Of a stretch of DNA of 64,000 nt, positions 21,312 through 33,493 are shown piece after piece. The position numbers were made by a program, and so were the translations under genes. Source of the stretch: Gemmatimonadota bacterium (lineage in GTDB: Bacteria; Gemmatimonadota; Gemmatimonadetes; Gemmatimonadales; Gemmatimonadaceae); the NCBI GenBank assembly GCA_026387935.1, contig JAPLKU010000001.1, forward strand, positions 62,001 to 126,000, read 5' to 3'. Numbering within the stretch: position 1 is the first letter of the stretch; every line of letters starts with the position of its first letter. The notes below the pieces were generated by a model. It saw only the letters and a list, made by a program, of their open reading frames with translations, made no database searches and was not told the origin of the DNA.

Positions 21312-23531
21312 CTACACCGGGAAGACCATCTCGCGATAGCGCGGGAGCGGCCAACGCGCGTCGTCGATCTTGAGTTCCAGCGCGTCACATGCGACCCGCA
21401 CATCGGCCATGGTATCGGCACCGGTGGAGGTGAGGAACTGCGCTTGCTTTGCGGGAGCATCGTGCATGCCTTCGGCCTTGTCGATCGCGGCACTGAGCGC
21501 GGCGGACGATTTCTGCAGCTCACCGACGAGCTTGCCGATGGCATTGGCCGCCTCGATCTGTGGGACGGCCTTCACGCCAGCCGCCTTGGACGCGGCGGCG
21601 GCGTTCACGAGCACGGCGAGGTATCCGTGCGCAGCCGGCGCCACCATCGTGTCGGCCATCTCACGGAGCGTGTGCAGCTCGATGAGCATGTCCTTGATGT
21701 ATCGCTCAAGGCGAATGTGATAGCGTGAGTCGACTTCCTCACTCGAGAGAATGCCGAGTGAGGTGAAGAGTTTGCGTGACTGCGGGGTGACGATCTGGGC
21801 CAGCGCCTCCGGCGTACGACGGAGGTTGAGCAGGCCGCGCTTCTTGGCCTCGACCACCCAGGCGTCTGAGTAGTTGTTGCCTTCGAAGCGAACGGACTTC
21901 GTTTCGCGAAACGCGGCGCTCACGACCTTGAGCACGGCGTCATCGCGATTCTTCGTCTTCTTCATCTCGGCCTTGAGTTGCGCCGTGAGTTCGGCAATGG
22001 ATTCGGCGACCGTTGCGTTCAGCAGCATCACGGGGAAGGCGATGGACTGCGAAGAACCGACGGCGCGGAACTCGAACTTCACGCCGGTGAAGGCGAAGGG
22101 CGACGTGCGATTGCGGTCGGTATTGTCCTTTGCGACTTCGGGGAGCTTGGCGACGCCGAGCTTGAGCATCGCTTCCGCGGCGCCCTGCTTGCCCGTCTTG
22201 CCAGCCGCGATGTCGTTGATGACCCGCGTGAGCATCTCACCCATGAACACGGAAATAATCGCCGGCGGCGCTTCGTTCGCGCCGAGGCGATGTTCGTTGC
22301 CGCTTGTGCCGATGCCGGCGCGGATGAGGCCGGCGTGTTTGTGCACGGCCTTGAGCACGGCGGCAAGGAACAGCAGGAAACGAATGTTCTGATGCGGCGT
22401 CTTGCCCGGCTTGAGGAGATTGACTCCGTCGAGATCGTTGTCGGACGCGATGGCCAAGGCCCAGTTGCAGTGCTTGCCCGAGCCATTGATGCCGGCAAAC
22501 GGCTTTTCGTGCAATAGCGCCTGGAGGCCGTGACGAAGCGCCACCTTCTTCAGGATGCTCATCACGAGCTGGTTGTGATCGACGGCGATGTCCGTTTCTT
22601 CGAAGATCGGCGCCATTTCGAACTGACAGGGCGCGACTTCGTTGTGGCGTGTCATGATCGGCACGCCGAGCTTGTAGAGCTCATGTTCGACTTCGGCGAT
22701 ACAGGCCTGCACGCGTTCGGGGATCCCACCGAAGTAGTGGTCTTCGAGCTGCTGTCCCCGCGGCGGCGGCGCGCCAATGAGCGTGCGGCCACCCATGACG
22801 AGGTCAGGCCGCAGCGCGAAGTGGCCGCGGTCGATGAGGAAGTACTCCTGCTCGGCGCCGAGCGTCGTGTAGACGCGGAGCGCGCCCTTGTCGCCCAGGA
22901 GCTCGAGCATTTCCAGTGAACGCTGCGAGAGCACATCGCTTGAGCGAAGCAGCGGGGTGAGCTCGTCGAGCGCCTCACCGTGATAGCCGATGAACGCCGA
23001 CGGAATGCAGAGCGTCTTGGCGCCGCCGGATTCCATGATGAAGACGGGTGACGCCGGATTCCACGCGGTGTAGCCGCGCGCTTCCCAGGTGGCGCGCAGT
23101 CCACCAGAAGGGAACGACGACGCGTCTGGCTCGCTCTGAATGAGCTGATCGCCGGAGAACTTTTCGATCGGGGCGTTATTCTCGTCGAAGCTGAGGAACG
23201 CGTCGTGTTTTTCAGCAGTGAGCCCAGTCTGCGGCTGGAACCAGTGGCAGAAGTGCGTGACGCCGCGGGAGACGGCCCATTCCTTGATGACCTGTGCGAC
23301 CGTCGGTGCGATGTCGATGTCGAGTTTCTTTCCGAGTCGTACCGAGGCGAGCAGTTTTACATAGATCTCGGCGGGAAGCTTCGCGCGCATATGCTTTGCG
23401 CCGAAGGTGTTGATGCCGAAGTACGCGGATGTTGGGGACGGAAGCTCTGGTGAAGCAGCGTGCGGTGCGGCGGCGAACCGTGAGCTGATGGCGCTGAGAG
23501 CTTTGGCGCGAGGCGACGAGGCGTCGGACAT
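21312..23531 (-). CDS. glnN: Glutamine synthetase type III (GlnN)
   Basis: The protein has 739 residues, the GSIII size, and shares only catalytic motifs with glnA. The N-terminal segment YFGINTFGAKHMRAKL is typical of GSIII. Active-site motifs are TLGAEQEYFLID, NEVAPCQFEMAPIFE, AGINGSGKHCNWALA and GTSGNEHRLGANEAPP. The long helical C-terminal extension ends at PLPRYREMVFPV, another GSIII hallmark. It makes glutamine from ammonia and glutamate, and in other bacteria it is often induced by nitrogen limitation. I chose ATG 23531 (MSDASSPRAK); the longer frame lacks family similarity. A promoter-like pair and an inverted repeat lie upstream. Confidence 0.95.
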   Translation of the reverse strand: MSDASSPRAKALSAISSRFAAAPHAASPELPSPTSAYFGINTFGAKHMRAKLPAEIYVKLLASVRLGKKLDIDIAPTVAQVIKEWAVSRGVTHFCHWFQPQTGLTAEKHDAFLSFDENNAPIEKFSGDQLIQSEPDASSFPSGGLRATWEARGYTAWNPASPVFIMESGGAKTLCIPSAFIGYHGEALDELTPLLRSSDVLSQRSLEMLELLGDKGALRVYTTLGAEQEYFLIDRGHFALRPDLVMGGRTLIGAPPPRGQQLEDHYFGGIPERVQACIAEVEHELYKLGVPIMTRHNEVAPCQFEMAPIFEETDIAVDHNQLVMSILKKVALRHGLQALLHEKPFAGINGSGKHCNWALAIASDNDLDGVNLLKPGKTPHQNIRFLLFLAAVLKAVHKHAGLIRAGIGTSGNEHRLGANEAPPAIISVFMGEMLTRVINDIAAGKTGKQGAAEAMLKLGVAKLPEVAKDNTDRNRTSPFAFTGVKFEFRAVGSSQSIAFPVMLLNATVAESIAELTAQLKAEMKKTKNRDDAVLKVVSAAFRETKSVRFEGNNYSDAWVVEAKKRGLLNLRRTPEALAQIVTPQSRKLFTSLGILSSEEVDSRYHIRLERYIKDMLIELHTLREMADTMVAPAAHGYLAVLVNAAAASKAAGVKAVPQIEAANAIGKLVGELQKSSAALSAAIDKAEGMHDAPAKQAQFLTSTGADTMADVRVACDALELKIDDARWPLPRYREMVFPV

Positions 23532-23597
23532 AGTTAATGAATGAGGGGATGCCGAGGTGTACAGGGAAATGTGCAGATTGAGCAAACTTATCGCGTC

Positions 23598-23627
23598 ATT
23601 CTGCAAAATTCAACGGAAAAACGTCAA
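23598..23627 (-). promoter_or_regulatory. Candidate glnN promoter
   Basis: On the minus strand TTGACG (23627-23622) and CAGAAT (23603-23598) are separated by 18 bases. This would give a leader of roughly 60 bases to ATG 23531. It lies immediately downstream of a 10-bp inverted repeat. Confidence 0.5.
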
Positions 23628-23630
23628 GAA

Positions 23631-23657
23631 TGTCCACAATTACGGTCATTATGGACA
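23631..23657. promoter_or_regulatory. Inverted repeat upstream of glnN promoter (possible operator)
   Basis: The arms tgtccacaat (23631-23640) and attatggaca (23648-23657) pair at 9 of 10 positions around a 7-base spacer. The site sits just upstream of the candidate -35 element, where an activator would bind. It does not match the TnrA or GlnR consensus I know. Each arm also resembles a DnaA box at about 7 of 9 positions, so a DnaA-related reading is possible. Confidence 0.5.
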
Positions 23658-23730
23658 AGTCTTGGCGTACATTTGTGACAATTGGAGCCCGTAGCCATTG
23701 GAACGGCGGTCGGCGGGCGCTAAGAACGGC

Positions 23731-25131
23731 TCACCACCAACCGAGCACTTTCCACCATGCGAGTCCGGCGACCGTCCAGATCGTGATTGTCGCGAACGAG
23801 ACGTAGAGGCCGAGCCTCCACCAATCACGTTGAGACACGTAGTTCGCACCGAAGTAAATCGGGGCCGTCGTCGTTCCGTAGTGCGTGAGCGACGCCGAGA
23901 GGTTGGAGAAATAGGCGAGCATGATCACGGTAAGCAGCGGCGGTGCTCCGGCGGCCATCAACACCACCGCGAAGGGCACGAACATCGCCGTGACATGCGC
24001 GGTGATACTCGCGAATCCGTAGTGCGCGTAGAAGTAGATAAGGAGCAGAATGGCCAGAGCCGCACCCCACGCGAGCCCGGTGGTCAAGCCGGCAGCGGAC
24101 TGCGCGAATCTCTCGGTGAGTCCTGAGCGGCCGACCGCTTCGGCCATCCGCACGACGCCGCCATACCAGAGGAACACATCCCAGGCGCCACGCTCACTGA
24201 TGATGTCGTCCCAGGTGAGCACGTTGGTCAGGAAGAGGAGACAGACGCCGAGGAGCGCGACCACGGCGTAGTCGATGTGATGCAGCGGGCCGGTCATCCA
24301 GAGTCCGGACACGAGCACAAAGACGAACAGCATCATCCGTTCATTGCGCTGCATGGGCCCGATGCGCGCCAACTCCTCTTTCGCCAAACGCGTGGCATCG
24401 GGCGTGTGCGTTACCTCTGGCGGGTAGAGCTTGAACAGCAGCCACGGGATAAACGCGAGCGACAGGAGGCCGGGCACTGATGACCCGAGAAGCCACTTGG
24501 AATAGCTCAAGTCAATTTTAGTCGTCTCCATCGCGAGCTTCGCGACGATGACATTGGATGCCTGGCCGGTGAGGAACATGGCACAGGCGATCACATCGCT
24601 CTGATAGATCGTGATGAGCAGGAACGCTCCGAGCCGGCGCGCCGTGGCGCCGGGCTTCGATTCGTACGCTTCGGCGAGACTGCGCGCGATGGGGAAGATT
24701 ACGCCGCCGCAGCGCGCGCTGTTGCTCGGGAGGAATCCCGCCAGCAGCGCGTCGGTAGATGTGAGCGCGTAGGCGAGGCCGAGGGAATTTTTCCCGATGG
24801 CACGGATAAACAGATATGCGATGCGACGCCCCAGTCCCGTATTCAGCACGCCGCGCGACATGAAGAAAGCGCAGAGCACGAGCCATACGAGTGGGTCCGC
24901 ATACCCGGCGAGCGCCTCGCGCGCGGGCATCGTTTTCGTGATCGCGAGGGCTGCGACACCGAGAAATACGACAGCGCCAGCCGGAACCGGCCGAACGATG
25001 GAGCCGACAATCGTGCCCGTGAAGATGGCGAGCAGATGCCATGACTCAGGAGAGATACCGGTGGGAACCGGCATAGCGAGAACCGCGAGCGCGGAGCCCG
25101 CGACGAGAAGCCAGCGTAGGGACGTTGACAT
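23731..25131 (-). CDS. DASS (SLC13-type) anion symporter, 2-oxoglutarate/malate translocator-like
   Basis: The protein has 466 residues from ATG 25131 with about 12 hydrophobic helices. It carries the DASS signature GFLPSNSARCGGVIFPIARSL and, in the second half, HYGFASITAHVTAMFVPF and NLSASLTHYGTTTAPIYFG. These two places match the paired SN(T/S)-type substrate sites of CitT, TtdT and the plastid 2-oxoglutarate/malate translocator DiT1. It moves di- or tricarboxylates across the inner membrane. Next to two glutamine synthetases, 2-oxoglutarate is an attractive substrate, but this is inference. The start lies about 70 bases from the divergent tRNA-Cys. Confidence 0.88.
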   Translation of the reverse strand: MSTSLRWLLVAGSALAVLAMPVPTGISPESWHLLAIFTGTIVGSIVRPVPAGAVVFLGVAALAITKTMPAREALAGYADPLVWLVLCAFFMSRGVLNTGLGRRIAYLFIRAIGKNSLGLAYALTSTDALLAGFLPSNSARCGGVIFPIARSLAEAYESKPGATARRLGAFLLITIYQSDVIACAMFLTGQASNVIVAKLAMETTKIDLSYSKWLLGSSVPGLLSLAFIPWLLFKLYPPEVTHTPDATRLAKEELARIGPMQRNERMMLFVFVLVSGLWMTGPLHHIDYAVVALLGVCLLFLTNVLTWDDIISERGAWDVFLWYGGVVRMAEAVGRSGLTERFAQSAAGLTTGLAWGAALAILLLIYFYAHYGFASITAHVTAMFVPFAVVLMAAGAPPLLTVIMLAYFSNLSASLTHYGTTTAPIYFGANYVSQRDWWRLGLYVSFATITIWTVAGLAWWKVLGWW

Positions 25132-25149
25132 GGTGCGAGAATGTACCGC

Positions 25150-25178
25150 TTGGAGCGGAGGTTCGCGTCGGCTACTTT
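25150..25178 (+). promoter_or_regulatory. Possible tRNA-Cys promoter
   Basis: TTGGAG (25150-25155) and TACTTT (25173-25178) are 17 bases apart and end 23 bases before the tRNA. Both hexamers are weak matches, so this is tentative. Confidence 0.3.
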
Positions 25179-25201
25179 TCTCTCTCGTAGACAAAGGGTC
25201 T

Positions 25202-25273
25202 GGCACCGTAGCCAAGTGGTAAGGCAGAGGACTGCAAATCCTTTATTCGTCGGTTCGATTCCGACCGGTGCCT
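25202..25273 (+). tRNA. tRNA-Cys (GCA)
   Basis: A full cloverleaf can be drawn. The acceptor stem GGCACCG pairs with CGGTGCC. The D arm is GCCAAGTGGTAAGGC. The anticodon stem GAGGA/TCCTT encloses the loop CTGCAAA with anticodon GCA. The T arm is GTCGG-TTCGATT-CCGAC. The discriminator is U73, as usual for tRNA-Cys. CCA is not encoded (CTC follows T73), so it would be added after transcription. It is divergent from the DASS gene. Confidence 0.95.
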
Positions 25274-25320
25274 CTGAGGGACAGTAGGTAGACGGCAGTT
25301 GGGAGATGACAGAGGACAAG

Positions 25321-25365
25321 AATGGACGAGCGGCGCGCAACTTTATTGCGCGCCGCTCGTCCATT
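25321..25365. terminator. Long perfect hairpin downstream of tRNA-Cys
   Basis: Arms 25321-25340 and 25346-25365 are perfectly complementary over 20 bp around a 5-base loop (CTTTA). No T run follows. It lies 47 bases after the tRNA and could stop or process its transcript. Its arms are longer than needed for a simple terminator. Bases 25366-25475 hold no other feature I can support. Confidence 0.55.
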
Positions 25366-25475
25366 CACCGAAGACGAAATCGTGTCGCATGGTATTGCGT
25401 GATTCGTCGGTGTCGTGGTACTGTACTGTTGTCGACTCGGTACGCGTCCGGGCGCGCTGAGGCGACAGAATGACG

Positions 25476-25517
25476 AGGGCCGGGCACTCGCGAGAGGAGC
25501 CCGGCCCTTTTGTTTTC
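25476..25517. terminator. Rho-independent terminator between tRNA-Cys and amidase
   Basis: The arms agggccgggc (25476-25485) and gcccggccct (25499-25508) form a perfect 10-bp stem with a 13-base loop. It is followed on the plus strand by TTTGTTTT. On the minus strand it lies directly after the amidase stop (25528), so it may work in both directions. Confidence 0.75.
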
Positions 25518-25527
25518 CGTCAGCGCA

Positions 25528-27228
25528 TCAGCGATCGAGCAGCGGATACCACCGTTTTGGTGCGCGGCGATCCACGAGTTGTTCCGCCATCGCGGCCACG
25601 CGGAAGAGCAGCCGCTCACTCCAGGGGCGACCAATCACCTGCAGGCCGACGGGCATTCCGGCGGCGTCATAGCCCGCGGGGAAGCTGATGGCGGGGTGAC
25701 CCGTGAAGTTGGACGGGAAGGCGAATCGCATGACTTCCGTAGTCATCGACAGGTTCGATTCTCCCCTGGCAAGTGCCGCCGGATTGATGCGCGGGGCAAC
25801 CTGGCCGGTGGCTGGTGTCACGACGACATGCACGTCGCGGAAGACGGCTCGCCACTGTGCCATGGCGCGCGTACGGATACGTGCGGCGTTGACGAACTCG
25901 GCAGCAGTAAACGAACGCGCGATTGCGAGATTCGCGCGCGCGTCGAGTGAAAATTCGGTGCCTCTGGACGGATGCACTGCCGACATGGCCGATGCCATTT
26001 CGCCCGTGATCGCGACAACGTGTGCAACGCGCTGGAGGTCCAACTCGGGAATCTCCACCTCGACAATGGTGGCGCCGAGCCGTTCAAACTCACGCACCAT
26101 GACCTCGCAGCGATCGACAACGTCCTTCGTGGCGTGACGGAACCAGGGCCAATAGACGCCAACGTGCACCCCTCTGAGCGAGCCGGGAATGGCGACGTCG
26201 AGGGAAACGGAGGGGTGCGAGCGCGAATTGGGATCGAGGGCGTCGTCGCCGGCCATGATGGCGTAGGCCGCCGCGCAATCGCGTACGGTGCCGGCGATGG
26301 GGCCGAGGTATGCCACGCTCCACACGAGCGATGCCGCGCCATGCTCGCTGATGCGACCGAACGTGGGCTTGAGGCCGACGAGGCCGCAGAATGCCGACGG
26401 AATGCGAATGGATCCGCCGCCATCGGCGCCAATGGCCATTGGCACGAGTCCGCTTGCAACGGCCGTGGCTGATCCGCTCGACGAGCCGCCGGTGTGATAG
26501 GCGTCGTCGTAGGGATTGCGCGTGGTGCCGTAGTGCGGATTCAACCCGGTAACATTGATGCCGATCTCATGCATGTTGGCCTTGCCGACAATCAGCGCGC
26601 CGGCCGCGCGCATGCGCGCCACGACGGTCGCGTCAATCTTCGATGGCGCCCCGCCGAACACTCGCGTGCCGACGGTCATCGGATACCCGAGGGCGTTCAT
26701 CTCGTCCTTCACCGCAACCGGCACGCCGTCCCATGGACCGATCGGCTTGCCGGCCTTCCAACGCGCCGCGCTCGCCGCCGCTTGCGCGGCGAGGTCGTCT
26801 TCACGTACGGCAATGAACGCACGCAGCGGGCGGGCATGCGCATCGCTGGCGTGCCACTGGGAGACGAATCGCGCCGCGACCTGCTCGGGGGTCGTTCGGC
26901 CCGAGCGGTACGCAGCGCCGAAGTCGGCGGCGCTGGGAAACTGAAATCCTGGCGGAGCGGGCGGCCTGGCGGGTTGATCGCTATACGGACTGTCGTTCGG
27001 ATCGAATGGATCGAGTGCGGGGATGCCGGGGTCTTCCGAACTGTGCATCGGGAAGAGTGCCGGCGCTTCATCGAGCGCGATTTCGCGAAGGCGAGTGATT
27101 CCCGCATCGCGTTTCAGTTTCTCGACGATGGCGGGACCGACCAACCCGTTTTCGACGAGGCGGACCAACAGGCCAAGCGCGCGGCTTCCGAGGCGCGGAA
27201 GCGAGACCGATCGCAGGTCGTACGTCAT
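25528..27228 (-). CDS. Amidase (amidase signature family)
   Basis: The product has 566 residues from ATG 27228. The Ser-cisSer-Lys triad is visible: Lys in GVPVAVKDE, cis-Ser in TGGSSSGSA, and the nucleophile Ser in GADGGGSIRIPS. Residues 1-95 form an N-terminal helical extension with a Pro-rich linker, and there is no clear signal peptide. Members of this family hydrolyse amides or act as GatA in tRNA amidation; without gatB/gatC nearby and with the extension, a catabolic amidase is more likely. It follows the S51-containing lipoprotein gene by only 22 bases, so the two are probably one operon for releasing nitrogen from amide-rich substrates. Confidence 0.9.
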   Translation of the reverse strand: MTYDLRSVSLPRLGSRALGLLVRLVENGLVGPAIVEKLKRDAGITRLREIALDEAPALFPMHSSEDPGIPALDPFDPNDSPYSDQPARPPAPPGFQFPSAADFGAAYRSGRTTPEQVAARFVSQWHASDAHARPLRAFIAVREDDLAAQAAASAARWKAGKPIGPWDGVPVAVKDEMNALGYPMTVGTRVFGGAPSKIDATVVARMRAAGALIVGKANMHEIGINVTGLNPHYGTTRNPYDDAYHTGGSSSGSATAVASGLVPMAIGADGGGSIRIPSAFCGLVGLKPTFGRISEHGAASLVWSVAYLGPIAGTVRDCAAAYAIMAGDDALDPNSRSHPSVSLDVAIPGSLRGVHVGVYWPWFRHATKDVVDRCEVMVREFERLGATIVEVEIPELDLQRVAHVVAITGEMASAMSAVHPSRGTEFSLDARANLAIARSFTAAEFVNAARIRTRAMAQWRAVFRDVHVVVTPATGQVAPRINPAALARGESNLSMTTEVMRFAFPSNFTGHPAISFPAGYDAAGMPVGLQVIGRPWSERLLFRVAAMAEQLVDRRAPKRWYPLLDR

Positions 27229-27250
27229 GCTGTTGGCGTTGCTCGCCGCA

Positions 27251-29905
27251 CTACTTGATTGGTTTGGCGAGAACGCCGACGTGGCCCCGGGCGCCTGCGA
27301 CGAAACCGGCGCTCGCGCTTGCGAATCCAACCCCGTAGGCCGTGAGCGTATCCGCATGCGTCCAGCTGCCGCCGAAGTTGCGGGTGTACGCCACGCCGGT
27401 CTGTCCGACGGCAATGAAGAGTGGCGGCGTGGTGCCGGGCACGTAGATCACTCCGGAGGTCGTCCCGTCCGGGCGCTGCGTGCTCGCGGGTGTCCACGTG
27501 GCGCCGCCGTCCGTCGTGCGCACGGCAAAGGCGTTCACGCCGCGTTCGTTGCGGTAGTCGCCACCGATAGCGAGGCCGTTCATGGCGTCCGAGAACGCGA
27601 TGCCGAAGAGGCCGGAACTTGCGCCGCCCGGCATTCCGGTGGACGACGCCTTCCAGGAACGCCCCCGATCGGTTGTGCGAAAGACTCGCGCTTCTGCGCC
27701 GCCGCCTGTGGCGATCCAACCGTTGGATGTGCCTTGCACGGTGAGCTGTGTGTTGCTCGCGGCGAAGGCTGCTTCGCCGGGAAGGTTCTCGGGGAGATTG
27801 GCCGCGGGAACGCGCGACCAGCTCTTGCCGCCGTCATCAGTGGTGAGGATTACGAACTTCTTGTTGATGGGATCTGAGAAGGTGAAGCCGTGCTGCGTGT
27901 CCCAGAAGGCGACGCCGTCGAGGAAGAGGCCCTTCGTGGAATCGCTCCACGATTGCGCCCAGTTTTTGCCACCGTCCGTCGTGCGGAAAATTTTCGCCTG
28001 ACCCTGCTCGGCCGGCCCAGCGCTGACGACAACGGCGGCGCTGGCATCGAAGGCCTTGATGCCGCGAAAGTCGAGGCGCGCGGCGCCGCGAACCGAATCC
28101 ACACTCCAGGTGGCGCCGCCATCAATCGTGCGGAGCACCGTTCCACCTGTGCAGCCGGCCCACGCGACCTGTTCGTTGGCCGCGCTCAGACTGCGACAAC
28201 TCGACGTGCTCGACGTGCTCGACATCGGCGCGTTCTTGAACGACGAGCCGTCGCGTCCATTGAAGAGGAGGCGATCCGTGATGCGATTGGCGGCTGCTTT
28301 CGCATCGAACGCGGGGTCATCGGTGAGGATGATGATCGAGGCATGGTGGCCTGGAATTCGGACATACGCGCCCTGCTTGCCGTCCGACGTGACGAATGCG
28401 GTCTGCCGAGCGAGTCCGCGATAGTTCTCAAAGTGCCAGCCGAGGCCGTTGCCTTTCCCGCCGCCGCCGCCCGGGGCAAACATTGAATCCTTGCCCGCTG
28501 TCGTGAGTGCTGGATTCGCGGTGAAGCCAAGCTCGAGGCGATAGAGATCGTCGACATTGGCGAGAATGGTGCCATCCTCATCAGCCTTGATGCGTTGTGA
28601 ACCCATTGTGGCCAGCACTCGACGCTGCATGAGATCGGCGAGCTTGCCGCCGGATCGTTCAATGAGCAGTCGCGAGATGTTTTTCGCTCCCCCGGGCGCT
28701 GCGTTGACGCCAGTGAGGTATTCGCGAATAGTGGCGCTTCCACCACTAGAGAGGGGTTCGTCGAGCTTGAGTTTGTTGTCGCGCACCACGCCGAGCGTGG
28801 CGGACGCAAGCAAGGGGTCGGCGATGTTGCCGGTGGGAAAGTTCGGGTAACCGGTGGGCGGCACGAACTTCTTGTGGGTCTCGATGCCGTAGCCCTTGGC
28901 GACGAAGACGCGACCTTCCTGTGCGACATGCACCGTGGCCTTGCCGCCTCGCGCAAATCCCGAGAACACGGAATCGATGAACGCCAGCGTAAGCGGCGTC
29001 GCATCGATGGCGCGGGAAATGATCCGACGCGCGCCAAGGTGGTATTTGTCGCCGGGGAGGAGGGTCGTGTACGGCATGCCCGGATCATGCGGATCCTTGC
29101 CGGTGTAGACGAAGGCTTTGTTGCGCCCGATGATTTCGGCTTCGTCGCCTTTCACGACCCAGGCAGTGCCTTCGTCTTCCGAAATGAACATCATTTCAGG
29201 ATGCCGCGGCTGAAGCGAGTCGGAGATATCGGGAAGCCGTTCGCGCGCGACCACGTGCATGTCGTCGCCGGTATTGCGGAGGAAGGAGAATCCTTTCGTG
29301 TAGCCTGGATACTCCATGATGAAGTTGTTGTTCGATGGCGCGCCTCGAACCATGAATTCACCGAGGATCGCGGCACCGGCGGACGACCCGCCGACCACGC
29401 CGCCTCGCGCCAGCACATTGTGAAACTCGGTGTAGATGCGTGTGCCAGCGTATGAGTCCACGAGGTGGAACTGGCGCCCGCCCTCGAACCAGACACCACC
29501 GGCGCGCTTGACGATGTTGACGAAGCTGTCGGAGTTGGCGAGATCCTTTCGGTTCGGATTGGAATGGAGGACCACCACGTTCTTCGCACCCGCTCCCTTG
29601 AACCCGTTGGCGCCGCGCCAGTCGGGTGGGTAGACCGTATCACCGCCTGCGGTGGGGATGTCGATGATGAGCGCGTTTGGACCACCAGCCGCGTCGATGA
29701 AGGCTTTGTAGATCTCGGGCCCCTGTCCTCCGCCGCCCACGACGAGCACCGTGCCGCGCGGAGGGCCGATGATTGGCGCGCCGCCGGACGGCGTGTTCGT
29801 GCCGCCCGAACTGGAGACGGCGCCGGCGCAAGCGGCGGTCAGCGCGAGGAGCGCGAGGGTGGCGCTACGGAAGCGGATATGGCGGCGGGAATTGACAGTG
29901 GGCAC
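27251..29905 (-). CDS. Three-domain lipoprotein: S51 cyanophycinase-like peptidase + beta-lactamase-like domain + Asp-box propeller
   Basis: The product has 884 residues from GTG 29905, where a lipoprotein-type signal (LALLALTAAC, Cys26) begins; the longer frame upstream is antisense to the SCO gene. Residues 50-300 form a peptidase S51 domain like cyanophycinase: VVGGGGQGPEIY, FEGGRQ and the nucleophile elbow VGGSSAGAA with Ser175. Residues 305-548 resemble a serine beta-lactamase/PBP fold, but where SxxK should stand the sequence is GNIAD (359-363), so Ser and Lys are replaced by Asn and Asp. Residues 575-884 hold six Asp-box units (IDGGATW, TDGGKNW, DDGGKSW, TDRGRSW, TDGGATW and a degenerate last one), as in Ycf48/BNR propellers. 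It probably cleaves Asp-containing peptides at the cell surface. The amidase follows directly. Confidence 0.85.
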   Translation of the reverse strand: MPTVNSRRHIRFRSATLALLALTAACAGAVSSSGGTNTPSGGAPIIGPPRGTVLVVGGGGQGPEIYKAFIDAAGGPNALIIDIPTAGGDTVYPPDWRGANGFKGAGAKNVVVLHSNPNRKDLANSDSFVNIVKRAGGVWFEGGRQFHLVDSYAGTRIYTEFHNVLARGGVVGGSSAGAAILGEFMVRGAPSNNNFIMEYPGYTKGFSFLRNTGDDMHVVARERLPDISDSLQPRHPEMMFISEDEGTAWVVKGDEAEIIGRNKAFVYTGKDPHDPGMPYTTLLPGDKYHLGARRIISRAIDATPLTLAFIDSVFSGFARGGKATVHVAQEGRVFVAKGYGIETHKKFVPPTGYPNFPTGNIADPLLASATLGVVRDNKLKLDEPLSSGGSATIREYLTGVNAAPGGAKNISRLLIERSGGKLADLMQRRVLATMGSQRIKADEDGTILANVDDLYRLELGFTANPALTTAGKDSMFAPGGGGGKGNGLGWHFENYRGLARQTAFVTSDGKQGAYVRIPGHHASIIILTDDPAFDAKAAANRITDRLLFNGRDGSSFKNAPMSSTSSTSSCRSLSAANEQVAWAGCTGGTVLRTIDGGATWSVDSVRGAARLDFRGIKAFDASAAVVVSAGPAEQGQAKIFRTTDGGKNWAQSWSDSTKGLFLDGVAFWDTQHGFTFSDPINKKFVILTTDDGGKSWSRVPAANLPENLPGEAAFAASNTQLTVQGTSNGWIATGGGAEARVFRTTDRGRSWKASSTGMPGGASSGLFGIAFSDAMNGLAIGGDYRNERGVNAFAVRTTDGGATWTPASTQRPDGTTSGVIYVPGTTPPLFIAVGQTGVAYTRNFGGSWTHADTLTAYGVGFASASAGFVAGARGHVGVLAKPIK

Positions 29906-30036
29906 GGTGGCAGCCTCGGCAGAATGGGCAAAGGACGAACAGGGACAAGTTCGCGCAGACAGGCCTTCTTGGCGAGAGCGGGCCGTGCGTGGCGAGTTGG
30001 CCCGAAGTCGGGAGTGGCGCCGGTTACATTTGCACG

Positions 30037-30618
30037 ATGCACCAGCCGCATGTCGCGATCCTGGCGGTTGCCGCCGCCCTATTGGGCTGCGGCAAGGAAG
30101 CCCCATTGATGGGCATGGTGATTGATCCGCCGCAGGAGGCCCCCGTGGTGCGGATGGCCGATGCCGACGGCACGACGTTCGACCTCGATCAGCTGCGCGG
30201 CAATCATGCCGTGCTGATCTACTTCGGCTACACGCATTGTCCGGACGTCTGCCCGGCAACGCTCGCCGACTGGGCGCGTGCGAAGCGGGCGCTTGGTGGT
30301 GCCGCTGATGGGGTGCGCTTCGTCTTTGTGAGTGTGGACCCCGCTCGAGACACCCCGAAGATCGCCCGCGACTACGCGCACCAGTTTGACGCCTCGTTCG
30401 TCGGCCTCGCGCCCACGGCGGCGCAGGTGGATTCACTCAAGGCGTCGTGGGGGTTTGATGTGATGCGCGACTCCACTCCTGCGATGAAGACGGGCGAGTA
30501 CGGCGTGACGCACCCAGCGGGCAGTTTCGTCGTTGATCGTGCCGGGCGGATTCGTGAGATTTTCCCCCCGGAAAGCCGGGCTGAGGATATCGCGGCAGAC
30601 CTTCGTCGCATTCGGTGA
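30037..30618 (+). CDS. SCO1/SenC-family copper-handling lipoprotein
   Basis: The protein has 193 residues from ATG 30037, with lipobox ALLGC near residue 18. The thioredoxin fold carries the SCO copper site: C-x3-C in THCPDVCPA and a distal His in GVTHPAGSF. VSVDPARDTP and the closing FVVDRAGRIRE are also typical. SCO proteins deliver copper to cytochrome oxidase subunit II or act as thiol reductases in the periplasm. No oxidase gene is in the window. The stop overlaps the next start as GTGA (30615-30618). It is divergent from the S51 lipoprotein. Confidence 0.93.
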   Translation: MHQPHVAILAVAAALLGCGKEAPLMGMVIDPPQEAPVVRMADADGTTFDLDQLRGNHAVLIYFGYTHCPDVCPATLADWARAKRALGGAADGVRFVFVSVDPARDTPKIARDYAHQFDASFVGLAPTAAQVDSLKASWGFDVMRDSTPAMKTGEYGVTHPAGSFVVDRAGRIREIFPPESRAEDIAADLRRIR

Positions 30619-32222
30619 GGCGCAACGCCGTCGCGCTCGTGCGACTGATCGGCCGCGCGGCCGGCTGCAGCATGCTGCTCGGCGCTGCCGCCGCTGCCGC
30701 CGCTGCCGCCGCTGCCGCCGCTGCGCAGTCGACGGCGCCACTTGGACTGACGGCCGCCGTGAAATCGGCCGTGTGCCCACAAGCGGAATTATTCTGCGTG
30801 CCGCCGGAGGTGCTGCGGGAGTTTCGCGGTGTGTGGGTCGCGACGGTCGGGAACATGGACTGGCCTTCACGGCCGGGCCTTCCGGCTGACAGCGCACGCG
30901 TAGAACTCGTGCGGATACTCGATCAAGCGGTGTGGAGTGGACTCAACGCCGTGGTGTTCCAGATTCGTCCGGCCGGCGACGCGCTCTACGCGTCAAAGAT
31001 TGAGCCGTGGTCGGAGTACCTCACTGGCAAACAGGGATTGGCGCCGGTCGAACACTGGGATCCGCTGACGTTCGCGGTCGCGGAGGCGCACGCGCGCGGC
31101 CTCGAGCTGCACGCGTGGTTCAACCCTTATCGGGCCAAGGATCCGACGGCGAAGGGACCACTGGCCGCGATGCACATGGCGAATCAGTATCCGGCGTTCG
31201 CAAAACGGTACGGTCACTACACCTGGTTTGATCCCGGCGAGCCGGCGGTGCGACGACGCACGGTGCGCGTCGTGCTCGATGTGTTGGCGCGGTACGATGT
31301 GGATGGCATTCACTTTGATGACTACTTCTATCCGTATCCGGAGCAACGGCGGCGGAAAGACATTCCGTTTCCAGACGCGACGAGCTTCAAGCGGTACCAG
31401 AAGCAGGGGGGAAGTCTCGAACGCGACGACTGGCGCCGCCGAAATGTTGACCTGTTGATTGATACGCTTCGCACCGAGATCGCGAAGGTCAAACCGTGGG
31501 TGAAGTTTGGCGTGAGCCCGTTCGGCATCTGGCGACCCGGCGAGCCCTCAAGCGTGCGCGGATTTGACGCGTATTCGAAGATCTTCGCTGACGCACGGAA
31601 ATGGCTGGTGAACGGATGGGTGGACTACCTCGTGCCACAGCTCTATTGGGCGATTGCGCAGGATGGCCAGGCGTTCGGCGAACTGCTGCGGTGGTGGAAG
31701 GCCCAGAACCCGCAGGCGCGTCACGTGTGGCCCGGGCTTGCCGATTACAAGATTGGCGACGGCCGCGTGCCGTGGCAGAGCGGCGAAATCCTCCGGCAGA
31801 TCGATACGACCCGGGTAGCGGGCGGGTCGATTGGCACGGTGCACTTTCAGATGAAGGCGTTGCTGCAGGACCGTGATTCCGTGGCGACGCGACTCGCGCG
31901 TGGTCCGTATGCCGCGCCGGCATTGGTGCCCGCGTCTCCGTGGATGGGTCGTGTGGCACCCCGCACCCCGGCGATTGCGATCGCGGGCGCCTCCACCGGC
32001 GACATCCTGACGATTGCGCGCCGCGCAACGGACGATGTGAAGTGGTGGCTCGTGCAGACGCAGGCCGGCGGTGCGTGGACGACGCGTGTCATGGACGGCG
32101 CCCTTACGCAGATCGCGATGGTAACGTTTACCAGCGCCGCGGGCGCGCCGGAGATTCTTGCCGTGACGCCGGTGGGGCGCACTGGCGTTGCCGGATCCCC
32201 GATAGCAATTCGTGTCCGATGA
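30615..32222 (+). CDS. Exported GHL10-family glycoside hydrolase-like protein
   Basis: The 535-residue protein starts with GTG overlapping the SCO stop. A signal peptide contains 14 consecutive alanines before QSTAP. The GHL10 (DUF187) TIM-barrel domain covers about 65-400: EFRGVWVATVGNMDWPS, GLNAVVFQIRPAGDALY, ELHAWFNPYRA, YDVDGIHFDDYFYPYP, KFGVSPFGIWRPG and DYLVPQLYWAIAQ. The IHFDDY and FGVSPFGIW segments line the barrel cleft. A small beta domain closes the C-terminus. Relatives such as DigH cleave denuded peptidoglycan glycan strands, so a role in cell-wall or glycan turnover is likely. It overlaps dctA by ATGA. Confidence 0.88.
   Translation: MRRNAVALVRLIGRAAGCSMLLGAAAAAAAAAAAAAAQSTAPLGLTAAVKSAVCPQAELFCVPPEVLREFRGVWVATVGNMDWPSRPGLPADSARVELVRILDQAVWSGLNAVVFQIRPAGDALYASKIEPWSEYLTGKQGLAPVEHWDPLTFAVAEAHARGLELHAWFNPYRAKDPTAKGPLAAMHMANQYPAFAKRYGHYTWFDPGEPAVRRRTVRVVLDVLARYDVDGIHFDDYFYPYPEQRRRKDIPFPDATSFKRYQKQGGSLERDDWRRRNVDLLIDTLRTEIAKVKPWVKFGVSPFGIWRPGEPSSVRGFDAYSKIFADARKWLVNGWVDYLVPQLYWAIAQDGQAFGELLRWWKAQNPQARHVWPGLADYKIGDGRVPWQSGEILRQIDTTRVAGGSIGTVHFQMKALLQDRDSVATRLARGPYAAPALVPASPWMGRVAPRTPAIAIAGASTGDILTIARRATDDVKWWLVQTQAGGAWTTRVMDGALTQIAMVTFTSAAGAPEILAVTPVGRTGVAGSPIAIRVR
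30684..30724 (+). repeat. 9-bp minisatellite in the GHL10 signal peptide
   Basis: Four perfect copies of gctgccgcc (30684-30719) plus a partial copy encode a run of 14 alanines in the signal peptide. Unit length is a multiple of three, so slippage changes only the length of the Ala run. Confidence 0.9.
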
Positions 32223-33493
32223 AACGTGTCCTGAATAATCTGACCTTCCGCGTCCTGGTCGCCGTAACGATCGGCGTGATTTTCGGGATTGTGGATCCGG
32301 TGCATGCCAAGGAGATGAAGCTTCTGGGCGACATCTTCATTCGGCTCGTGAAGATGGTGATCGGCCCTGTGATTTTCCTCACGATCGTGCTGGGGATCGC
32401 GAACATCGCGGATCTCAAGAAAGTCGGGCGCGTGGGCGGAAAAGCGATTCTCTACTTCGAGATCGTGACGACGTTTGCACTCGGCATCGGCTTGACGATC
32501 GTGAATCTCACCAAGCCGGGCGTCGGACTCGACGTGAGCACGATGACGAAGGGCGATATCTCGTCCTATGCGGCGCAGGGGAAGGCGATGAGCTTCGCGG
32601 ACTTCCTCGTGCACGTCGTGCCGGAAAGTGCCGTGAAGGCGTTTGCCGACGGCGACATCCTACAAGTGGTGTTCTTCTCCGTCATGTTCGGCACAGCGGT
32701 CGTGCTGCTCGGGCGTCGTGGGCAGCGCATTGTTGAACTGGCCGAAGGTGGACTCGATGCGATGTTCCGCGTCGTGGAGATCGTGATGAAGGTGGCGCCG
32801 TTCGGTGCGTTCGGCGCGATGGCGTACACCGTGGGCAATTTCGGGCTCAAGACGCTGGTGCCGTTGCTCCGGCTGATGGGCGACGTGTACCTGACGATGT
32901 TCCTGTTCATCTTCGTCGTGCTGAACCTGATCATGCGGTATTTCGGGTTCAGTCTGTGGCAATTCCTCAAATACATCCGCGACGAAATCCTGATTGTGCT
33001 CGGCACATCGTCGTCGGAAGCGGCGCTGCCCAAGCTGATGGAAAAGCTCGAGCGCTATGGCTGCGCCCGGCCGGTGGTCGGGCTCGTGGTGCCGACGGGA
33101 TACTCGTTTAATCTCGATGGCACGAGCATCTATCTCTCGATGGCGACGATCTTTCTGGCGCAGGTGTACAACGTTCCGCTGACGTTGGGCCAGCAACTCA
33201 CAATTCTTGCCGTGCTGATGGTGACCTCGAAGGGTGCAGCCGGGGTGACCGGTTCGGGGTTCATTGTCCTGGCCAGCACGCTGTCGGCGATGCAGGTGAT
33301 CCCGCTCGAAGGACTCGCGTTGCTCCTTGGTGTGGACCGGTTCATGAGTGAAGCGCGCGCCATCACGAACATCATCGGCAACGGCGTGGCAACGCTGGTG
33401 ATTTCGCGGAGCGAAGGGGCGTTTGATGACGCCAAACGCGAAGCGGCAGTCGCCGAGATGGCCAGCGCGAACCTTGCGGTCGCCGAACGCTGA
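32219..33493 (+). CDS. Dicarboxylate:cation symporter (DctA/GltP family)
   Basis: The product has 424 residues from ATG 32219, which overlaps the GHL10 stop as ATGA. Glutamate/dicarboxylate symporter landmarks are present: the TM1-3 region with LVKMVIGPVIFLTIVLGIAN, the serine-rich reentrant loop GTSSSEAALPKL, GYSFNLDGTSIYLSMATIF and TSKGAAGVTGSGFIVLASTL. The helix VDRFMSEARAITNIIGNGVAT follows, whose Arg is the residue that selects dicarboxylates (DctA) or acidic amino acids. It imports C4-dicarboxylates or glutamate/aspartate with protons or sodium. Placement after a glycosidase and SCO gives no clear pathway. Confidence 0.92.
   Translation: MKRVLNNLTFRVLVAVTIGVIFGIVDPVHAKEMKLLGDIFIRLVKMVIGPVIFLTIVLGIANIADLKKVGRVGGKAILYFEIVTTFALGIGLTIVNLTKPGVGLDVSTMTKGDISSYAAQGKAMSFADFLVHVVPESAVKAFADGDILQVVFFSVMFGTAVVLLGRRGQRIVELAEGGLDAMFRVVEIVMKVAPFGAFGAMAYTVGNFGLKTLVPLLRLMGDVYLTMFLFIFVVLNLIMRYFGFSLWQFLKYIRDEILIVLGTSSSEAALPKLMEKLERYGCARPVVGLVVPTGYSFNLDGTSIYLSMATIFLAQVYNVPLTLGQQLTILAVLMVTSKGAAGVTGSGFIVLASTLSAMQVIPLEGLALLLGVDRFMSEARAITNIIGNGVATLVISRSEGAFDDAKREAAVAEMASANLAVAER

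Follow-up and report, generated by a model that had tools for sequence, protein, structure and literature searches.

A degenerate beta-lactamase-like domain between an S51 peptidase domain and a Ycf48-type propeller in a lipoprotein-type protein of Gemmatimonadaceae

The closest known relatives of the enzyme domain considered here are the cyanophycinases of peptidase family S51, such as CphB (3EN0) and the extracellular CphE, and in CphB the pocket residues Gln101, Asp172, Gln173, Arg178, Arg180 and Arg183 have been reported as critical (PMC3235067). Also in family S51 are aspartyl dipeptidases and an enzyme that cleaves an isoaspartyl nucleotide, MccG (PMC9239234); therefore, membership of the family does not give the substrate. 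For the other parts of the locus the nearest known systems are the PF00144 hydrolases of the class C beta-lactamase/PBP type (2qmi, D-aminopeptidase, LACTB and AmpC), the photosystem II assembly propeller Ycf48/HCF136 (5ojr, 2xbg) and the plant fatty acid amide hydrolase (6dhv). In the window, that is, the whole stretch of 64,000 nucleotides that was analysed, a single minus-strand frame with a GTG start at 29905 and a stop at 27251–27253 carries, in this order, an S51 peptidase domain, a domain resembling class-C/PBP-type serine beta-lactamases and a Ycf48-type propeller (Table 1).

Table 1. Features of the locus, in positions of the window.
Feature	Position	Strand	Basis
Three-domain lipoprotein-type gene, 884 aa	27251..29905	-	colinear homologues L038, L039, L060
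Putative signal peptide with lipobox-like LTAAC (Cys26)	29828..29905	-	sequence, judged by eye
S51 peptidase domain, residues 49-296	29018..29761	-	PF03575; PDB cyanophycinases 7uqv, 3en0; Foldseek 7uqw/3en0
Nucleophile elbow GGSSAGA	29372..29392	-	sequence and alignment
Degenerate class-C/PBP-type beta-lactamase-like domain, residues 300-556	28238..29008	-	AlphaFold2, Foldseek, Pfam, intact relatives
Site of lost SxxK (N360-I-A-D363)	28817..28828	-	alignments
Ycf48/Asp-box beta-propeller, residues 562-880, six Asp-box motifs	27266..28222	-	PF14870, PF02012; Foldseek 5ojr, 2xbg
Next gene, amidase-signature enzyme, plant fatty-acid-amide-hydrolase type	25528..27228	-	PF01425; 6dhv; synteny
Divergent SCO1-like and GHL10 genes, locus markers in relatives	29989..32222	+	domain matches, synteny

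A preliminary description, made from the sequence, had proposed a lipoprotein with three domains, and the Pfam matches agree with it, all three folds being backed by AlphaFold2 and Foldseek. The N-terminus was judged by eye to be of the lipoprotein type, so that export is predicted; a Cys stands at the place corresponding to Cys26 in the relatives at the locus, and the −3 residue of the lipobox of the query is Thr, not the classic one. The same description had named the joining of two genes by mis-assembly as one way in which it could fail. This was looked for in other genomes and is excluded, because the same colinear frame was found in two genomes of the same genus, at 71–75% identity (L038, L039), and in a further genome (L060). 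The full-length AlphaFold2 model (pTM 0.62) did not resolve the packing between the domains and had low confidence at model residues 131–173, which adjoin the S51 active site; its Foldseek matches were cyanophycinase 3en0/7uqw and Ycf48 5ojr, with 2qmi and 4gdn lower in the list.

The N-terminal domain belongs to S51, with a PF03575 match at residues 58–259 of 32.6 bits against a curated cut-off of 23.9. The GGSSAGA elbow of a cyanophycinase-like Ser peptidase, previously taken to be intact, is present, and the catalytic triad Ser175, His217 and Glu245 is complete when aligned with 3en0/7uqv, in GxSxG, DxH and DE contexts; moreover, the triad residues are invariant across the aligned family. 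On the other hand, every aligned S51 relative reads DQH where the query reads DMH (window 29255–29263). This change, beside the catalytic His, is private to the query genome (L048, for one, has Gln there), and Met216 in place of Gln could impair this copy.

Might the protein be a secreted, CphE-like cyanophycinase that scavenges cyanobacterial cyanophycin? We consider this rather unlikely, although it accounts for several features: the best PDB sequence matches of the S51 domain are cyanophycinases, with the same fold and Ser-His-Glu triad, the equivalents of Gln101, Asp172, Arg178 and Arg180 are kept in the alignment, export is predicted and CphE is exported too, and an Asparaginase_2-family gene present in the genome could finish beta-Asp dipeptides. 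Against it, the score with the cyanophycinase equivalog model TIGR02069 was 76.2 bits, well under the cut-off of 126.6, and Arg183 is replaced by Asp both in the query and in its aligned relatives. At Gln173 the query alone has Met; CphE has Thr at this position, which is thus not strict. With these two replacements the cyanophycinase pocket is not complete in the query, which differs from the known enzymes also by its two further fused domains. In the query genome (95% complete) neither a cyanophycin synthetase nor the isoaspartyl dipeptidase IadA was found over the cut-offs, which speaks against an endogenous cyanophycin metabolism; the lack of a synthetase argues only against an endogenous polymer. 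Taken together with the pocket residues, cyanophycin appears doubtful as the substrate.

The C-terminal domain scored 46.9 bits with PF14870 (cut-off 27) and Foldseek matched it to 5ojr, in agreement with the six-unit Asp-box propeller expected from the sequence: six repeats were found, starting at residues 593, 642, 689, 744, 797 and 841, the last one degenerate. The list of its Foldseek matches includes two complexes, one of Ycf48 and a D1 peptide (5ojr) and one of DAIP and a piece of thermolysin (6fhp). The domain differs from Ycf48/HCF136 in being the C-terminal domain of a peptidase, and no phototrophy context was seen beside the gene. The propeller is dispensable, since it is absent from one protein of S51 and dead domain (L048) and from the standalone proteins described below.

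The middle region alone gave a sub-threshold match to PF00144 (E 6e-4), and 31 of the 33 aligned members of the middle-domain alignment matched this family. A model of residues 292–560, computed by AlphaFold2 from the 33-row alignment, reached a pLDDT of 86.5 and a pTM of 0.86. Foldseek against the PDB with this model, the fold search that had been suggested, returned PBP-related proteins and class C beta-lactamases, with 2qmi at E 3.9e-9 and probability 1.00; the modelled domain is therefore of the PF00144 type. The proposal of an apparently inactive beta-lactamase fold is also confirmed by the alignment of the motifs, in which SxxK is replaced by N360-I-A-D363, the YxN segment is deleted and HTG is replaced by A-F-V. 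The set of SxxK, YxN and K/H-T-G was found in all 10 intact relatives and in none of 58 degenerate domains. In fact, no degenerate domain has both the Ser and the Lys of SxxK, and all 58 have lost the Tyr of YxN by deletion and the HTG His and Thr by replacement or deletion. Degenerate domains measure 166–272 aa against 354–365 aa for the intact ones, being about 85 to 190 residues shorter, and the shortest members (about 195 aa) have also lost most of the SxxK helix. Deletion has removed the YxN segment and a large share of the cleft's helical half from every degenerate member; the N-terminal helix, the first beta hairpin, the last strands and the C-terminal helix are kept, while the parts of the cleft vanish. 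Judged by its motifs, then, the middle domain is a pseudoenzyme domain and not a beta-lactamase. Elsewhere in the query genome, a second stretch, G000:C20:5537-5836 (L005), is similar to the beginning of the middle domain (residues 303–398, 29% identity).

The preliminary description knew of no protein with this order of domains. None was found described in the searched literature; however, a search of 298 genomes of the phylum found the order in other genomes, in some with a dead and in others with an intact middle domain, and ruled out that it is unique to the query. It is an architecture of Gemmatimonadaceae, present mostly with an intact beta-lactamase-like domain, of which the query is the inactivated form. 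Ten relatives at the locus keep SxxK, YxN and HTG, and nine of them (L040, L041, L043–L046, L064, L066 and L070) have the full three-domain order. L042 has an intact beta-lactamase-like domain and a propeller, without S51, and L136–L138 have the propeller alone at that locus. The profile of the intact middle domain matches 2qmi and the D-aminopeptidase, LACTB and AmpC structures; of the NCBIfam models for proteins of the beta-lactamase type, that of D-aminopeptidase gave the intact L040 its best score. Many Gemmatimonadaceae genomes encode, elsewhere in the genome, S51 and the degenerate domain as a separate protein of roughly 500–600 aa (standalone S51-dBL proteins), and no recurring partner was seen among the neighbours of these genes in a small sample. 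In one MAG (nzgw229) there are two contigs that each carry an intact three-domain fusion, and the two fusions differ (L064, L066). Gemmatimonadaceae-type S51 and beta-lactamase-like genes were also met in records titled Lysobacterales and Candidatus Kuenenia (L093, L101), where binning contamination is likely.

The amidase gene adjoins the frame in L038, L039 and L060, with SCO1-like and/or GHL10 genes upstream and divergent. The 22-base gap that separates it from the frame (27229–27250) was reported correctly, but the suggestion that the two genes form a system stripping amide nitrogen from Asp-rich polymers or wall peptides is not supported. The amidase matches the plant enzyme 6dhv from end to end, the N-terminal part included (E 8.6e-116); its catalytic Lys, Ser and Ser are aligned with those of 6dhv, from which it differs in its bacterial origin; a functional link to Asp polymers is weakened by this match. 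No signal peptide was evident by eye in its sequence. Moreover, in L137, L138 and L042, where the locus lacks S51, the amidase gene still neighbours that of the propeller, and for this reason its presence does not argue that the two enzymes act together on Asp polymers. A glutamine synthetase and SLC13-type and GltP-type transporters lie around the locus (window 21312–33493) and partly follow it in the relatives. About 14 consecutive alanine codons form a triplet repeat close to the start of the GHL10 gene (window about 30684–30728), where its signal peptide is encoded.

The S51 tree places the intact fusions at its base and unites every degenerate member in a single clade (100/99), the simplest reading of which is that the beta-lactamase part died once. 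Within this clade, the query and its four nearest relatives (L038, L039, L060 and L048) form a clade (100/100) nested among the standalone proteins. In the propeller tree the query groups with the genes that its congeners carry at this locus. By AU tests, a single clade of all propeller-fused S51 domains was rejected (p 7e-62), as was a tree in which the query type joins the intact fusions found in its genus (p 0.0175, for a group chosen after seeing the identities). A tree in which the standalone proteins make up a single clade next to the query type was not rejected (p 0.14), which leaves two options for the origin of the dead three-domain form: it may have been remade by recombination between paralogues, or it may be the source of the standalone proteins.

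To estimate selection we used pairwise dN/dS by NG86, with ratios that are rough owing to a pS of about 0.6. Between the query and L048, L038, L039 and L060 the dead domain gave 0.15–0.27, against 0.09–0.11 for S51 and 0.08–0.14 for the propeller; the intact middle domain in L045/L046 gave 0.11, and the closer degenerate pairs L050/L068 and L025/L055 gave 0.13–0.15. The dead domain is under relaxed but real purifying selection, a constraint more in keeping with a scaffold than with a relic that evolves freely. A decaying relic, whose role would be limited to linking S51 and the propeller, would agree with the faster evolution of the dead domain compared with its neighbours and with its progressive shortening among the relatives, and still we find it unlikely: dN/dS is far below 1, a core of residues (R293, R298, A328, G331, P349, V451, D452, Y455 and R456) is 98–100% conserved in the 58 degenerate members, the AlphaFold2 model is confident and globular, and the domain is retained in proteins that have no propeller to link. 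Even less probable is the earlier suggestion of a ligand-binding module that presents wall peptides or D-amino-acid ends to S51, which has on its side the retained and constrained fold and a few positions conserved mainly in degenerate members (Pro354, Asp534 and, except in the query, Gln344), as would be expected of a new interface. Against it, what is conserved cannot be the pocket of the ancestor, the cleft-forming segment being the very part that was lost, together with the three motifs and, in the shortest members, most of the SxxK helix.

The reading that we regard as moderately probable as a whole is that of an exported S51 hydrolase with a dead beta-lactamase scaffold and a docking propeller. 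We infer that the S51 serine hydrolase would be the working part of the lipoprotein, probably as an exopeptidase whose substrates contain Asp or are of the beta-Asp (isopeptide) kind. The middle domain would go back to a serine hydrolase of the class-C/PBP type that was active and, in an ancestral protein, already joined to S51; its three catalytic motifs and cleft-forming helical segment would have been lost in the lineage common to all the degenerate members, and the domain may persist as a folded scaffold that packs against S51 or spaces it. The propeller, by analogy with the YCF48/D1 and DAIP/thermolysin structures, most likely docks a peptide or a partner protein. More tentatively, and as a lesser possibility, the dead domain may have been remade as a new interface controlling the access to the S51 active site, by substrate gating or oligomer assembly.

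These proteins should not be annotated as cyanophycinases or as beta-lactamases. They offer, in one bacterial family, a natural series of a dying serine beta-lactamase fold within a fusion protein, from the intact three-domain form and the version without S51 to the degenerate three-domain form and ever shorter two-domain proteins, in which the parts of the fold that are kept once catalysis is gone become directly testable. If the dead domain does form a new interface, this would be a case of a stepwise passage from an enzyme fold to a regulatory scaffold that a bacterial family has preserved, with intact-domain relatives at the locus.
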